A stretch of DNA of 45,821 nucleotides. Source: Sphingomonadales bacterium (GTDB lineage: Bacteria > Pseudomonadota > Alphaproteobacteria > Sphingomonadales > Sphingomonadaceae). Of this stretch, positions 14,371 through 34,765 are shown piece after piece. The notes under the pieces are model-generated. The model was not told the origin of the DNA. It saw only the letters and a program-made list of their open reading frames with translations, and did no database searches. Each line of letters starts with the position of its first letter. The stretch's first letter is position 1. The stretch is from positions 1-45,821 of the forward strand of contig JAIXYC010000124.1 in assembly GCA_027490455.1 (NCBI GenBank), in the 5' to 3' direction. The position numbers and the translations under genes were made by a program.

Positions 14371-15252
14371 CTACGCGCGCGACTTGCGCCACAAAAGAAG
14401 ACCGCTGGCGATAATGATCGCGGACCCGGCAAGCGATGTCATGTCTGGCCAATCGCCAAAAACCAATATGCCGAGCGCGAGGGCCATCAACAACTGCACA
14501 TAAGTCATCGGCGCGATGTCCGCGGCCGAAGCACGGGTTGTTGCCATAAAGATGAGCCAGTGCGCGAAGCTTGCACTGACCGCCACGACGGCACAGCGCG
14601 CGACGATGGTCCAGTCCGGCATGCCGATATGAAATGTCGGAACGCCAGAAAAATGACCCAAAATCGCTGCGGTCAGGATGAATGGCACAGCCAGCGACGC
14701 GACCAGAAATTGCATTAAAATTGGTGTCCCTGCCCCAGCGACGGCGCGGTTGCCAATCATCAAAAGCGCCATCGACATAGCCGCTGCAAGGGGTAACAAA
14801 GCAACCCAACCCAATTCGGCAACATTGGGCCGCATGATGAGAAGAACGCCGCCGAACGCAATAAATGTCGCCGTCCATTTGGTCACATTCGTCCGTTCGT
14901 GCAGAAAAATGGCGCTCAAGACCGCCGTGATCATCGGGCTTGTAAAACCAATTGCCGTAGCCTCAGCCAAGGGCATGACGAAGATCGACAAAAAGAAACA
15001 GATGGTTGCCATGGCCACTGCAAATCCGCGCAGGATCTGAACTTTGGGCATGGGCAAAGCAAATCCCTTCCTGCCTTCCTTAAGGTACAACAACGTGCCC
15101 AAGCCGACCGCACCGATCGAATAGCGCAGCGCCGCCACGGCCGTACCCGGCCATGCACCGGCAATCGATTTGATGACACCATCGCCCAAGGACAAAAGAG
15201 CAAAGCCGCAAACGGCATATAAAAGACCCGAACGGGCCGACGATGCGTGCAC
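14371..15252 (-). CDS. DMT/EamA family transporter
   Basis: ~10 TM segments, EamA repeat architecture (EATAIGFTSPMITAVLSAIFLHE, DIAPMTYVQLLMALALGILVFGDWPD). Confidence 0.88.
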   Translation of the reverse strand: MHASSARSGLLYAVCGFALLSLGDGVIKSIAGAWPGTAVAALRYSIGAVGLGTLLYLKEGRKGFALPMPKVQILRGFAVAMATICFFLSIFVMPLAEATAIGFTSPMITAVLSAIFLHERTNVTKWTATFIAFGGVLLIMRPNVAELGWVALLPLAAAMSMALLMIGNRAVAGAGTPILMQFLVASLAVPFILTAAILGHFSGVPTFHIGMPDWTIVARCAVVAVSASFAHWLIFMATTRASAADIAPMTYVQLLMALALGILVFGDWPDMTSLAGSAIIIASGLLLWRKSRA

Positions 15253-15416
15253 TGGATTTCCCTCGATTACCGCGTTCTCTTAAAAGTGTTTGCGGGGAAT
15301 GCAAAGCGGCAGAAATTTGTGTCGGGCAACCCAAGAAAAGCAAACTGTTACCGATTTATTTACCATTTGTCGGTAGCCAAAAATCCATAGTCCATAGAAT
15401 ATCGGAGCGGGATAAC

Positions 15417-16949
15417 GTGAGCGCATTTGGGAAGAAACCAGGCTTGTCTGTAGGGCGCTCATCATTTGGCGTGGCGCGCCCAATGACCGGCGGTGGGCCC
15501 TCGATTGCGCAACAGCCAGATTACGCGCAAACGACAGGCGGTGGCGAACAATTTCCACCCATTGAATCGGCAAACTTACCCGGCGGCAGTAATGGCGGTC
15601 CACAAACCGCCATGCAGGAAGCCATGTCGCGCTTGTCAGACCGTGCAAACAACGCGGCACCAGTCGATGAAGGTCCCCAAGGCTTTGAAGCTTCGGTACA
15701 TAAAATCAAAGAACAAGTTCTCCCGCGTCTATTGGAGCGTGTGGACCCCGAAGCGGCGGCATCGCTGAATAAAGAAGAGCTGACCGAAGAGTTCCGCCCG
15801 ATCATTCTGGAAGTGCTGGCGGAACTCAAGCTGACGCTTAACCGCCGCGAACAATTTGCTTTGGAAAAAGTGCTCGTCGACGAACTGCTCGGCTTTGGTC
15901 CGCTTGAAGAGTTGCTCAGCGATCCGGACATTACCGATATCATGGTCAATGGCCCGTTGCAGACTTATATCGAAAAAAAGGGAAAGCTGCAGATTGCGCC
16001 GATCCAGTTTCGTGACGAAGAGCATCTGTTCCAGATCGCGCAGCGCATCGTGAACCAAGTCGGTCGCCGCGTTGACCAGACCACGCCTTTGGCCGACGCC
16101 CGATTGAAAGACGGGAGCCGCGTGAACGTCATTGTTCCCCCGCTGTCGCTGCGCGGCACCGCCATTTCAATTCGTAAATTTTCCGAAAAACCAATCACAA
16201 TCGACATGTTGAAGGGCTTTGGTTCGATGAGCGAGCCCATGGCAACGGCATTGAAGATTGCCGGGGCAAGCCGGATGAATATCGTCATTTCTGGCGGTAC
16301 GGGTTCGGGTAAAACGACAATGCTGAATGCTTTATCCAAAATGATTGACCCCGGCGAGCGCGTTTTAACGATTGAAGATGCCGCCGAACTTCGCCTTCAA
16401 CAGCCGCATTGGCTCCCGCTTGAAACAAGCCCTCCGAACTTGGAAGGCGATGGCGCAATCACCATCGGTGACCTTGTGAAGAACGCACTGCGTATGCGCC
16501 CTGACCGGATTATCTTAGGCGAAATTCGTGGTGCGGAGTGTTTCGACCTCCTCGCCGCAATGAACACCGGTCATGATGGATCCATGTGTACGCTCCACGC
16601 CAACAACCCGCGCGAGTGTTTGGGTCGTATGGAAAATATGATCATGATGGGCGACATCAAAATACCCAAGGAAGCCATTTCGCGGCAGATCGCGGAATCG
16701 GTCGACCTTATCGTTCAGGTGAAGCGTCTGCGTGATGGTTCACGTCGCACCACCCAGATTACGGAAGTCATCGGCATGGAAGGCGACGTCATTGTGACGC
16801 AGGATTTGTTCAAATTCGAATATCGCGACGAAGATTCTGACGGCAAAATCCACGGTGAGTGGGTCCCGGGCGGCGTTCGTCCCTATACGCTGGAAAAGGC
16901 ACGGCAATTCGGCTTTGACCAGCCGTTCCTTGAGGCGTGCCTTGGCTAG
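15417..16949 (+). CDS. cpaF: CpaF family ATPase (Tad/type II/IV secretion ATPase)
   Basis: SGGTGSGKTTMLNALSKMI Walker A, EDAAELRLQQPHW, RMRPDRIILGEIRGAECFDLLAAMNTGHDGSMCTLHANN; probable GTG start at 15417. Confidence 0.92.
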   Translation: MSAFGKKPGLSVGRSSFGVARPMTGGGPSIAQQPDYAQTTGGGEQFPPIESANLPGGSNGGPQTAMQEAMSRLSDRANNAAPVDEGPQGFEASVHKIKEQVLPRLLERVDPEAAASLNKEELTEEFRPIILEVLAELKLTLNRREQFALEKVLVDELLGFGPLEELLSDPDITDIMVNGPLQTYIEKKGKLQIAPIQFRDEEHLFQIAQRIVNQVGRRVDQTTPLADARLKDGSRVNVIVPPLSLRGTAISIRKFSEKPITIDMLKGFGSMSEPMATALKIAGASRMNIVISGGTGSGKTTMLNALSKMIDPGERVLTIEDAAELRLQQPHWLPLETSPPNLEGDGAITIGDLVKNALRMRPDRIILGEIRGAECFDLLAAMNTGHDGSMCTLHANNPRECLGRMENMIMMGDIKIPKEAISRQIAESVDLIVQVKRLRDGSRRTTQITEVIGMEGDVIVTQDLFKFEYRDEDSDGKIHGEWVPGGVRPYTLEKARQFGFDQPFLEACLG

Positions 16950-17211
16950 GGTCAGGACCTATTAAATGCGCCTTCGCGGTTTGAGGCCATATTGTTCAGT
17001 GCAAGACGGCAAGCGCCGGACTTAGTGGTTCTAAATCCAAGCTTGCCAACGCAGCAATGGACAATATGGGTCAAATCCGAAGGACGCCAAAATGGCTTCG
17101 ATCTCAAAGTAAAATGCCCTTGCAGGCAGAATAACTGCCTGCGGCGGACATTTTACTTCGATATCTTTGCCATTTTGACGCCGCGATGGTGCATTTAATT
17201 GGTCCTGACCC
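16949..17211. mobile_element. MITE-like non-autonomous element with ~31-bp TIRs, TA flanks and two internal long hairpins
   Basis: Left gggtcaggacctattaaatgcgccttcgcgg (16949-16979) and right revcomp gggtcaggaccaattaaatgcaccatcgcgg (17181-17211) match 28/31; TA at 16947-16948 and 17212-17213; hairpins at 16980-17075 and 17085-17180. Confidence 0.85.
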
Positions 17212-17220
17212 TAAAGCCGT

Positions 17221-17814
17221 TTAATCCGCTGCGCGCAGCAGCTTTGCCATTTCGGCCTCATCCCATTCCACGCCGCCCGCCACGCGCCACACTTCTTTGC
17301 CATCACTGTCATATAATATGGTGGTCGGCAGCGCGATCGCGTTGTTGAACGCCGTCAGCAGTGCATTGTCCGCATCGGTATAGGGCACCAAATTCTTGAC
17401 CGCTGTTTCCTTGAAAAAGGCAACAACAGGTGCGCGTCCTTCAAGGTCCTGCGACACGGCGATCACGTTCATCCGGCCTTTTTCCGACGCCGCCAGCGTG
17501 TCCAGCGTCGGCATTTCGGCTTTGCATGGTGCGCACCAAGTTGCCCAGATGTTGAGCAACAACGGCTTGCCTTCAAAATCGGCAAGGCTGACATCCTGAC
17601 CCTGCGCATCCGCAAAAGGTGCCGATGGCGCTTTTTGACCTGCAAATTTATAGCTGAGCGTGGCGCGCATGCCATTGGCGCTTTCAAGAGTGATTTCCGC
17701 CTTGTCAGACGCGCCTGCTTGCCCCGTGGATGCGGGTTGCGCTTGCCCCTTGGGTTCGCTTTCTTTATCGCACCCAGCCAGCACTAAAAGGATTAAGGCA
17801 ATTACAAAGCGCAT
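17221..17814 (-). CDS. TlpA-family thioredoxin-like lipoprotein
   Basis: [18 protein letters not shown] lipobox; [23 protein letters not shown] (CxxC); start trimmed to ATG at 17812-17814. Confidence 0.93.
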
Positions 17815-17830
17815 CTCTGATTCCAATAGC

Positions 17831-19201
17831 ATGTGGGGCGGCCGGTTTGGCGAAGGCCCTGACGTTATCATGCGCGAGATAAATGCCTCCATCCCATTCG
17901 ACAAGCGTCTTTGGCAGGAAGACATAGCGGGCAGTAAAGCGCATGCCGATATGCTGGCCGCAAACGGGATTATAACGGCGTCAGACAATGCCGCGATCCA
18001 AAGCGGACTGGATAGCATTTACGCCGAATATGCAGCCAATGGCGTGCCCGAAGACCTTACGCTTGAAGACATTCATATGGTCACCGAAACGCGGTTACGT
18101 GCTTTGGTGGGGGAGCCTGCGGCACGCTTGCACACCGCGCGGTCGCGCAATGATCAAGTCGCCACCGACTTCCGCCTTTGGGTGCGCAATGCGACCCATG
18201 AAATCAATGCTGGCCTGCGCGCATTTCAGTCGGCGCTGGTGACACGGGCCGAAGAACATGCCGACAGCATCATGCCGGGCTTTACGCATTTGCAAGTCGC
18301 GCAGCCCGTTACGCTTGGCCACCATCTGATGGCTTATTACGAAATGACAAAGCGCGACCGCAGCCGCTTTGCCGATTGCCGCAGCCGGTTGAACCAGTCG
18401 CCCTTGGGTGCGGCCGCACTTGCAGGAACATCCTTCCCGATTGATCGCGCCGCAACGGCATTGGCGCTTGGCTTTGATGGCCCCATGGCGAACAGTCTGG
18501 ACTCGGTTTCCGACCGCGACTTCGCGCTGGAGTTCCTCACGGCCGCCGCACAAACCGCGCTGCATCTGTCGCGCTTGGCCGAAGAAATGATCATATGGGC
18601 GTCGCAGCCTTATGGTTTCATCAGCCTGCCCGACGCATGGTCGACGGGCAGCTCCATCATGCCGCAAAAGCGCAATCCCGATGCGGCTGAACTGGTGCGC
18701 GGACATGCAGGCCGGATCATTGGCTGCATGAATAGCCTGATGATCACGATGAAGGGCCTGCCGCTCGCATATTCCAAGGACATGCAGGACGATAAACCGC
18801 CTGTGTTTGAGGCATATGACCTGCTGGCTTTATCCATCGCTGCGATGACGGGCATGGTGGCCAATGTGACGTTTAACACGCCGCGGATGCGCGACGTCGC
18901 GGGCAGCGGCTTTTCTACCGCGACCGATCTGGCCGACTGGTTGGTGCGCGAATTTGGCATGCCCTTTCGCGAGGCACATCATGTCACCGGCAGCGTCGTC
19001 AAATCTTGCGAGGCGCGTGGCATAGGTCTGTCCGACATCACCGTAGACGATCTGTCTGCCGTCAATCCTGCGCTCGCTGGCTGCAATTTGCCGGATCTGT
19101 CGATTGAAGGATCGGTAAACAGCCGGACGAGCGCTGGCGGCACGGCACCTATTCGCGTAAAAGAAGCCATCAGTACCGCCAAAAAGGAACTTGAGGCATG
19201 A
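17831..19201 (+). CDS. argH: Argininosuccinate lyase
   Basis: [21 protein letters not shown]..., [42 protein letters not shown] signature. Confidence 0.98.
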
Positions 19202-32188: not shown

Positions 32189-34765
32189 ATGAACCTCGAG
32201 AAATTCACCGACCGGGCCAAGGGTTTTCTGCAAAGCGCGCAGACCGTGGCCATTCGTATGAGCCATCAGCGGATCGGACCTGAGCATCTCCTCAAAGCCT
32301 TGCTGGAAGACGAACAGGGCATGGCCTCGGGCCTTATCAAGGCTGCAGGAGGCGACGCCGCGACCGCATTGCGCGAAACCGACGCAGCGTTGGCGAAGGT
32401 TCCTGCCGTGTCGGGCGGCGGTGCGCAGCAAACGCCCGGGCTTGATAATGACGCCGTTCGCGTTCTCGATTCCGCCGAACAGGTCGCGCAAAAGGCTGGC
32501 GACAGCTATGTGACGGTCGAACGTTTGTTGCTCGCGCTTGCGCTGGCGTCCACCACGACCGCTGGGAAGGCTTTGGCCACTGCTGCGGTCACAGCCGAGG
32601 GTTTGAACGCCGCGATTAATGCGCTGCGGGGTGGGCGTTCCGCCGACACCGCTGGCGCCGAGGACCGTTATGATGCGCTGAAGAAATTCGCGCGCGACCT
32701 GACGGAAGTGGCCCGCGCGGGCAAGCTTGATCCGGTCATCGGCCGTGATGAAGAAATACGCCGCACCATTCAAATCCTTGCGCGGCGCACGAAGAACAAC
32801 CCTGTTCTCATCGGTGAACCCGGCGTGGGTAAAACGGCCATTGCCGAAGGACTGGCGCTGCGCATTGCCAATGGTGACGTACCAGACAGCCTAAAAGGCC
32901 GCAAACTCTTGTCGCTCGACATGGGCGCCTTGATTGCCGGCGCGAAATATCGCGGAGAGTTTGAAGAGCGGCTGAAGGGTGTGCTGGATGAGGTGAAGCA
33001 GGCCGAAGGTGACATCATCCTGTTCATCGACGAAATGCACACGCTCGTCGGCGCAGGTAAAGGCGAAGGCGCGATGGACGCGGCGAACCTCATCAAACCT
33101 GCCCTATCACGCGGCGAATTGCACTGCATCGGCGCGACAACGCTCGATGAATATCAAAAGCATGTCGAAAAAGACCCTGCCCTGCAACGCCGGTTCCAAC
33201 CGGTATTCGTCGGTGAACCAACGGTTGAAGATACGATTTCGATCCTGCGCGGCTTGAAAGAGAAATATGAACTGCACCATGGCGTGCGGATCACCGATGG
33301 CGCGTTGGTGAGTGCGGCGACATTATCGCACCGTTACATTGCCGACCGTTTCCTGCCTGATAAAGCCATCGACCTGATGGACGAAGCCGCGTCGCGGCTC
33401 CGCATGGAAGTGGAATCCAAGCCCGAAGAAATCGAGACGCTCGACCGGCGTATCATTCAGCTGAAAATCGAGCGTGAGGCGCTTGGCAAGGAAAGCGATG
33501 CCGCGTCAAAGGACCGGCTGGCCACGCTTGAGAATGAACTTGCCAATCTGGAGCAGCAATCATCCGAACTGACCCAGCGCTGGCAGGCCGAAAAAGACAA
33601 GATTTCGGCAGAGGCCAAGATCAAGGAGCAGCTCGACACCGCGCGTATCGAGCTTGAGCAGGCGCAACGGTCGGGCGATCTCGCCAAGGCGGGCGAGCTG
33701 CAATATGGCGCAATCCCGGGCCTTGAACGACAACTGTCCGAAGCAGAATCAGCGGCAGGTAACGCCATGCTGCGCGAAGAAGTGACCGCGCAAGATATCG
33801 CGAGCGTTGTCAGCCGCTGGACAGGCATTCCTGTCGACAAGATGCTTGAGGGCGAGCGCGACAAGTTGCTCAATATGGAGCAACTGATTGGCGCGCGGGT
33901 GATCGGGCAGCAAGATGCCGTGGCCGCTGTATCCAAAGCCGTGCGCCGCAGCCGCGCAGGGCTTCAGGACCCCAACAGGCCGCTGGGATCATTCCTGTTC
34001 CTGGGCCCCACGGGCGTTGGTAAAACCGAACTGACCAAGGCGCTGGCATCATTCCTGTTCGATGACGACAATGCGATGGTCCGCATCGACATGTCCGAAT
34101 TCATGGAAAAGCACAGCGTATCGCGGCTGGTCGGCGCGCCTCCGGGATATGTCGGATATGAAGAAGGCGGTGTCTTGACCGAGGCTGTCCGGCGTCGGCC
34201 CTACCAAGTGGTGTTGTTCGACGAAGTCGAAAAAGCGCACTCCGACGTCTTCAACATCTTGCTTCAGGTGCTTGACGATGGCCGCCTGACCGATGGTCAG
34301 GGCCGCACGGTGGACTTTTCGAACACGCTCATCATCCTCACGTCCAATCTGGGCAGCCAGCATCTCGCCGCGTTGGAAGATGGTCAGGATGTGAAAGAGG
34401 TCGAACCACAAGTGATGGAAATCGTGCGGGGCCATTTCCGGCCCGAATTCCTCAACCGCCTCGACGAGGTCATCCTGTTCCACCGCCTTGGTGCCAATCA
34501 CATGGCGCCGATTGTCGATATTCAGGTGCAACGCGTGCAAAAGCTGCTGAAGGATCGCAAGATCACGCTCGCTTTATCCGAAGAGGCCAAGGCGTGGCTT
34601 GGCCGCGTGGGTTACGACCCCGTATATGGCGCACGCCCGCTCAAGCGCGCTATTCAGCGATATTTGCAGGATCCGCTGGCGGATCTGCTGCTGCGCGGCG
34701 AAGTGCCCGATGGCTCCACGGTTAAGGTCGACGAAGGGGATGGAGCATTGAAGTTGGCGGTGTAG
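32189..34765 (+). CDS. clpB: ATP-dependent chaperone ClpB
   Basis: [21 protein letters not shown]..., [18 protein letters not shown], coiled-coil middle domain, [15 protein letters not shown]. Confidence 0.98.

Follow-up and report, generated by a model that had tools for sequence, protein, structure and literature searches.

The 263-bp sequence at positions 16949–17211 (plus strand) of the window, the whole 45,821-nucleotide stretch of DNA analysed here, is very probably a MITE of the IS427 type that maintains a three-way-junction fold. Full-length copies with 94–98% identity share both of its end bases, and TA stands on either side, at 16947–16948 on the left and, read from the sequence, at 17212–17213 on the right. 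The terminal inverted repeats (TIRs; element positions 1–31 and 233–263) match at 28 of 31 positions (90%), and the 11-bp tip GGGTCAGGACC is perfect at both ends, the right one reading GGTCCTGACCC on the forward strand. On the plus strand, the left tip (16949–16959) is followed by the inner part of the left TIR (16960–16979), hairpin 1 (16980–17076; element positions 32–128), a junction linker (17077–17082; element positions 129–134) and hairpin 2 (17083–17180; element positions 135–232), and the right TIR, also read from the sequence with its tip on the minus strand, occupies 17181–17211. The RNA minimum free energy (MFE) of the element was −145.4 kcal/mol, compared with a shuffled mean of −75.5 (z = −14.6; 0/200 shuffles as stable), and a fold with DNA parameters gave a similar picture (z = −14.0; 0/200 shuffles as stable). 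In the MFE fold the TIR stem, hairpin 1 and hairpin 2 meet in a three-way junction, with mismatches inside the TIR stem at element positions 12 and 25 and internal loops within the hairpins. The element contains no ORF of at least 80 aa, and is short, non-coding and TIR-bearing, as MITEs are. The initial annotation's description of a 263-bp element with 31-bp TIRs, TA on both sides and two long hairpins was thus confirmed.

The element sits between two convergent genes, one for a type II/IV secretion ATPase (T2SSE, CpaF-like; 15243–16949, plus strand) and one for a thioredoxin-like protein (TlpA/redoxin; 17221–18018, minus strand), the second of which does not adjoin the cpaF-like gene in relatives. 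The left TA copy forms the first two bases of the TAG stop of the cpaF-like gene, and the first G of the element completes it. At the 3′ end of this gene, four relatives (G012, G028, G004 and G020) have an empty TA site, reading CGGC-TAAAG or similar in G012 and G028; two (G015 and G017, the former with one substitution) carry a 13-bp insertion, TA-GGGTCAGGACC-TA; two (G010 and G014) carry a 40-bp mini-element; and the present assembly (G000) carries the 263-bp element. The series shows directly that insertion took place at TA and that shortening followed or accompanied it. Across the dataset, TA flanked both ends at 113 of 142 distinct insertions. With TA insertion, many copies and empty-site counterparts, the suggestion that the element is MITE-like was borne out.

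We also observed 53 solo 11-bp tips of the form TA-GGGTCAGGACC-TA (at L147, L105, L354 and other loci). At the cpaF site and at one further site described below, comparison with empty sites shows the solo tip to be a clean insertion of 13 bp. A footprint, a TA–TA deletion and direct insertion are all candidates for the origin of solo tips.

The same assembly holds a second full-length copy with 97% identity (G000:C97, around 32389–32651, L038). The usual neighbour of cpaF adjoins this second copy, where it is joined to a third segment whose corresponding site carries a solo tip in G014. The copies here therefore form the junctions cpaF–element–tlpA and cpaF neighbour–element–third segment, and these segments lie apart in relatives. 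Junctions unique to this assembly reflect either recombination or rearrangement through the copies or misassembly at 263-bp repeats. The ends of the element itself are unaffected by this problem, because relatives give identical ends.

We examined the context of insertions with a simple, crude ORF caller, which placed none of them inside ORFs. Of 115 classified insertions, 43 lay in gaps between convergent genes, a class that made up 50 of the 296 background gaps. We counted 256 ends; at 85 of them, TA and the G that opens the element exactly closed an open frame of 80 or more codons, the other two frames giving 20 and 27. Because a G starts both ends, an insertion that hits the TA of a TAA or TAG stop yields a TAG stop in either orientation. 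Terminator-like motifs within the element were weak.

Full-length copies or fragments were found in 33 of 45 Sphingorhabdus genomes, with dozens in some and up to 41–46 matches in one genome. Diverged full-length copies, with 64–69% identity to the window copy, occur on plasmids of Sphingopyxis alaskensis, Novosphingobium sp. EMRT-2 and Sphingobium yanoikuyae. The 13-mer TAGGGTCAGGACC had 183 exact matches in WA123a (G027, a 3.0-Mb MAG), where the reversed control had none, and between 1 and 31 exact matches in each of six other counted genomes. A literature search on the tip and on sphingomonad MITEs returned nothing relevant. WA123a also carries an unrelated 38-bp inverted repeat (CCCTGAACTTGGTTCAGGG; L191, 867–954), with a further copy nearby.

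The copies fall into size classes of 40, 80, 102, 158, 177, 203 and 263 bp, all of which keep the paired TIR; the shorter classes lack an apex, one hairpin or both. Direct repeats of 8–9 bp flank the deletion junction in the 80- and 203-bp classes, which may arise repeatedly through slippage. Copies of the 177-bp class, which lacks hairpin 2, share an identical junction, with 2-bp microhomology, across many sites in WA123a, and this points to one deletion that spread afterwards; hairpin 2 is thus dispensable for movement. Since derivatives without one hairpin still spread, movement does not strictly require either hairpin.

We analysed conservation of pairing in 46 copies that were less than 95% alike, over 102 pairs. 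Standard pairs formed in 94.9% of pair cells. Double-sided changes were seen at 53 of the 102 pairs (shuffled mean 25.1) and in 288 cells (shuffled mean 71.8; slid controls at most 64). RNAalifold recovered the same architecture with 46 compensated pairs. Thus, the proposed check for covariation in the three stems gave a strong signal. It was clearest at TIR positions 12–24, where the sequence is variable and the pairing kept; one pair there was C-G in 18 copies, G-C in 9, A-U in 7 and U-A in 5. Conservation was 0.93 at the tip and 0.91–0.93 in the junction-proximal parts of the three stems, and fell to 0.68 in the inner TIR and 0.77–0.80 at the hairpin apices. Several mismatches also persisted, namely G.G at columns 38/123 (43 of 46 copies), C.T at 172/233 (45 of 46), T.T at 167/238 (43 of 46), C.C at 188/215 (43 of 46) and T.G at 189/214 (45 of 46). 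They span copies down to approximately 61% identity while neighbouring pairs covary.

It is somewhat unlikely, if a serious contender, that the hairpins are the inherited baggage of an ordinary MITE, with arms kept alike through mutational correction (template switching in quasi-palindromes) and not through selection. Among very similar copies (31 independent pairs) there were 142 one-sided changes and four compensated ones, a pattern that later correction could turn into compensation, and the compensated share of changed pairs climbed from 0 to 0.60 with divergence, which fits either selection or slow arm-to-arm correction. Derivatives with a single hairpin or none exist, some of them spread, and the arms do exchange, as the apex is inverted in hairpin 1 at L027 and in hairpin 2 at L085. 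Blanket correction would, however, erase the specific mismatches that persist, and conservation of the junction-proximal stems equals that of the transposase tip, whereas the neighbouring inner TIR is free to vary. We take the conserved mismatches and the conserved junction core as constraint on the fold, while allowing arm correction the share of probability just given.

We consider it improbable that the fold belongs to a strand-specific structured RNA, trans-acting or guide-like, that the element needs for its propagation. Such an RNA would account for the very strong fold, the covariation and the conserved internal loops. However, both strands fold alike (means of −148.4 and −147.8 kcal/mol), and in Watson–Crick columns there were 69 G.T cells compared with 106 A.C cells, so there was no G.T excess and no strand-specific RNA is indicated. 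Nor did we find a promoter-like site in the element or, in a search of the region, an Rfam family at threshold (the sole match was a sub-threshold miRNA), and hairpin-less derivatives spread. The constraint acts either on the DNA or on transcripts that come from both sides. Of the initial proposal that the element's transcript or single-stranded form is a selected structured molecule, the conserved pairing stood; the lack of strand preference and the spread of hairpin-less derivatives count against it.

We identified the likely source of mobility through the tips. IS5-family, IS427-type elements of approximately 840 bp, which occur in Sphingorhabdus, other sphingomonads, rhizobia and Nitrobacter, have the tip TAGGGTCAGGACCTATTAAAT as their left end. 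A plasmid search with the tip gave exact matches to the 19–21-mer in rhizobia, Sphingobium, Sphingomonas and other bacteria, as well as near matches in taxa that include Nitrobacter. An IS5-family element of 841–850 bp with this tip at its left end is present in Sphingomonas paucimobilis, Rhizobium rhododendri and Nitrobacter; its transposase starts about 70 bp inside, its right end reads GGGTCAGGACTCATTGAT or close to it, and TA stands at both flanks. Within Sphingorhabdus, G012 carries an 838-bp IS with the identical GGGTCAGGACC tip; IS5/IS427-type elements with the same or one-base-variant tips are present in G037, G036 and other genera, and single ends in other genomes. Two overlapping frames, the first carrying DUF4096 and the second DDE, encode the transposase, which matches transpos_IS5_3, a model of the IS5 family. 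The IS427 group is characterised by lengths of 832–865 bp, 2-bp duplications and a frameshift (PMC3281130), and the partner IS agrees with it in the DUF4096 N-terminal part followed by DDE, in size, in its 2-bp duplication and in its two overlapping frames. Similarity between element and IS ends approximately 19 bp from the tip and the interior has no homology, so the element is not a simple deletion of the IS. The element thus shares its tips with an autonomous element, as MITEs do, and has no interior derived from the partner by deletion, which is not required of all MITEs. From the tips and the target site we infer that an IS427 transposase moves the element.

No match to a DUF4096 transposase was found in the copy-rich genomes G044, G039, G040 and G014, in which the partner may be lost, unassembled or diverged. 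A pattern search, whose gap range was too narrow for the purpose, returned no tip pair spaced approximately 420 bp apart. Two candidate partners in WA123a were rejected. A tip pair 1.0–1.3 kb apart (L130) enclosed an oxidoreductase gene and not a transposase. A multi-copy IS5 element (eight copies; L211, 1501–2070) had different ends (GGTCACATACTC) and merely abutted a MITE copy; this juxtaposition recurs on contig C34, which suggests that this IS5 element and the MITE moved or were duplicated together.

TA target duplication is typical of the IS630/Tc1-mariner family, and the initial annotation had looked to it for mobilisation. This suggestion was overturned and is now very improbable: DDE_3 transposases were present in 5 of 45 genus genomes, none with GGGTCAGGACC ends; the IS630-type element in WA123a (L202, 1199–2634) merely sits inside a MITE copy; and IS5/IS427 elements carry the identical tip with TA. 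Equally hard to credit is a REP/RAYT-type palindrome moved by a Y1 (HUH) transposase, since, although the tip is a small imperfect palindrome (GGTC-AG-GACC) found as solo copies, Y1_Tnp (PF01797) was detected in 0 of 13 genomes, those richest in copies included, in a search that did detect its positive controls, and TA duplication is, to our knowledge, not a feature of RAYTs.

Under the reading that we prefer, the element is a non-autonomous MITE that IS5-family, IS427-type transposases would mobilise in trans: they would recognise the 11-bp tip (in many copies extended to TATTAAAT) and, with a 2-bp duplication, insert the element at TA. The interior is an independent conserved three-way-junction palindrome and not an IS remnant. 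The fold is probably not a strict requirement for transposition. The likeliest reason for its being kept, though far from assured, is that a folded copy can be tolerated or can persist whichever way it lies, as a DNA palindrome or as a 3′-end hairpin in transcripts arriving from both sides, with TA plus G restoring the stop of the neighbouring gene. We suggest more tentatively still that the three-way junction is a selected single-stranded DNA or cruciform structure (or a strand-symmetric transcript) acting for the element itself, with, for example, a host factor or one of the transposase complex recognising the conserved junction core. In that case, the fitness of this MITE family would depend on the fold as well as on the tips.

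Matched mutations in the two arms have preserved the fold, something for which an ordinary broken-down transposon would have no need. MITE hairpins are usually described from folds of single sequences, and here copies from four genera allow the structure to be put to a test, which it passes in its compensated pairs, conserved mismatches, conserved junction core and lack of strand preference. The purpose of a MITE structure thereby becomes testable, the shortened derivatives forming a natural ladder without one or both hairpins. The analysis also ties a family of alphaproteobacterial repeats to one particular IS group, and it reveals a tip that, with TA plus G, rebuilds stop codons upon insertion.

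Among known repeats, the CIR elements were reportedly described by Chen and Shapiro in 2003. Found in Caulobacter and other alphaproteobacteria, they resemble the present element in being intergenic, with TA termini and two long arms joined by a linker (PMC2229807). They are approximately 110 bp long, lack TIRs and have GANTC sites at their loops (PMC2229807), whereas here TIRs close the junction, the window copy has no GANTC and 5 of 46 copies have one, so that the element does not belong with them. Correia/NEMIS, ERIC and QMITE2 are likewise MITEs with TIRs and give transcripts that fold into stable stem-loops, and QMITE2 often lies within 3′ untranslated regions, but the descriptions are of long stem-loops that the ends close, with no pair of side arms (PMC2229807, PMC10969869). 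For these families we came across no account of a three-way junction evolving through compensatory changes. IS427-group elements such as IS1248 and ISPaes1 (PMC3281130) are of the same kind as the tip-bearing relatives found here (838–850 bp, TA, DUF4096 plus DDE); compared with them, our element has no transposase and has two left-type tips, one of them in place of the IS right end. RUP, a bacterial MITE moved in trans by IS630-Spn1 (PMC2229807), is similarly short, non-coding and intergenic, with TA at both ends and tips in common with a resident IS family. The present element differs from RUP in its larger size, its IS5/IS427 and not IS630 partner, its covarying three-way junction and its ladder of derivative sizes, and represents a new family of MITEs, unusual in its maintained three-way-junction fold.
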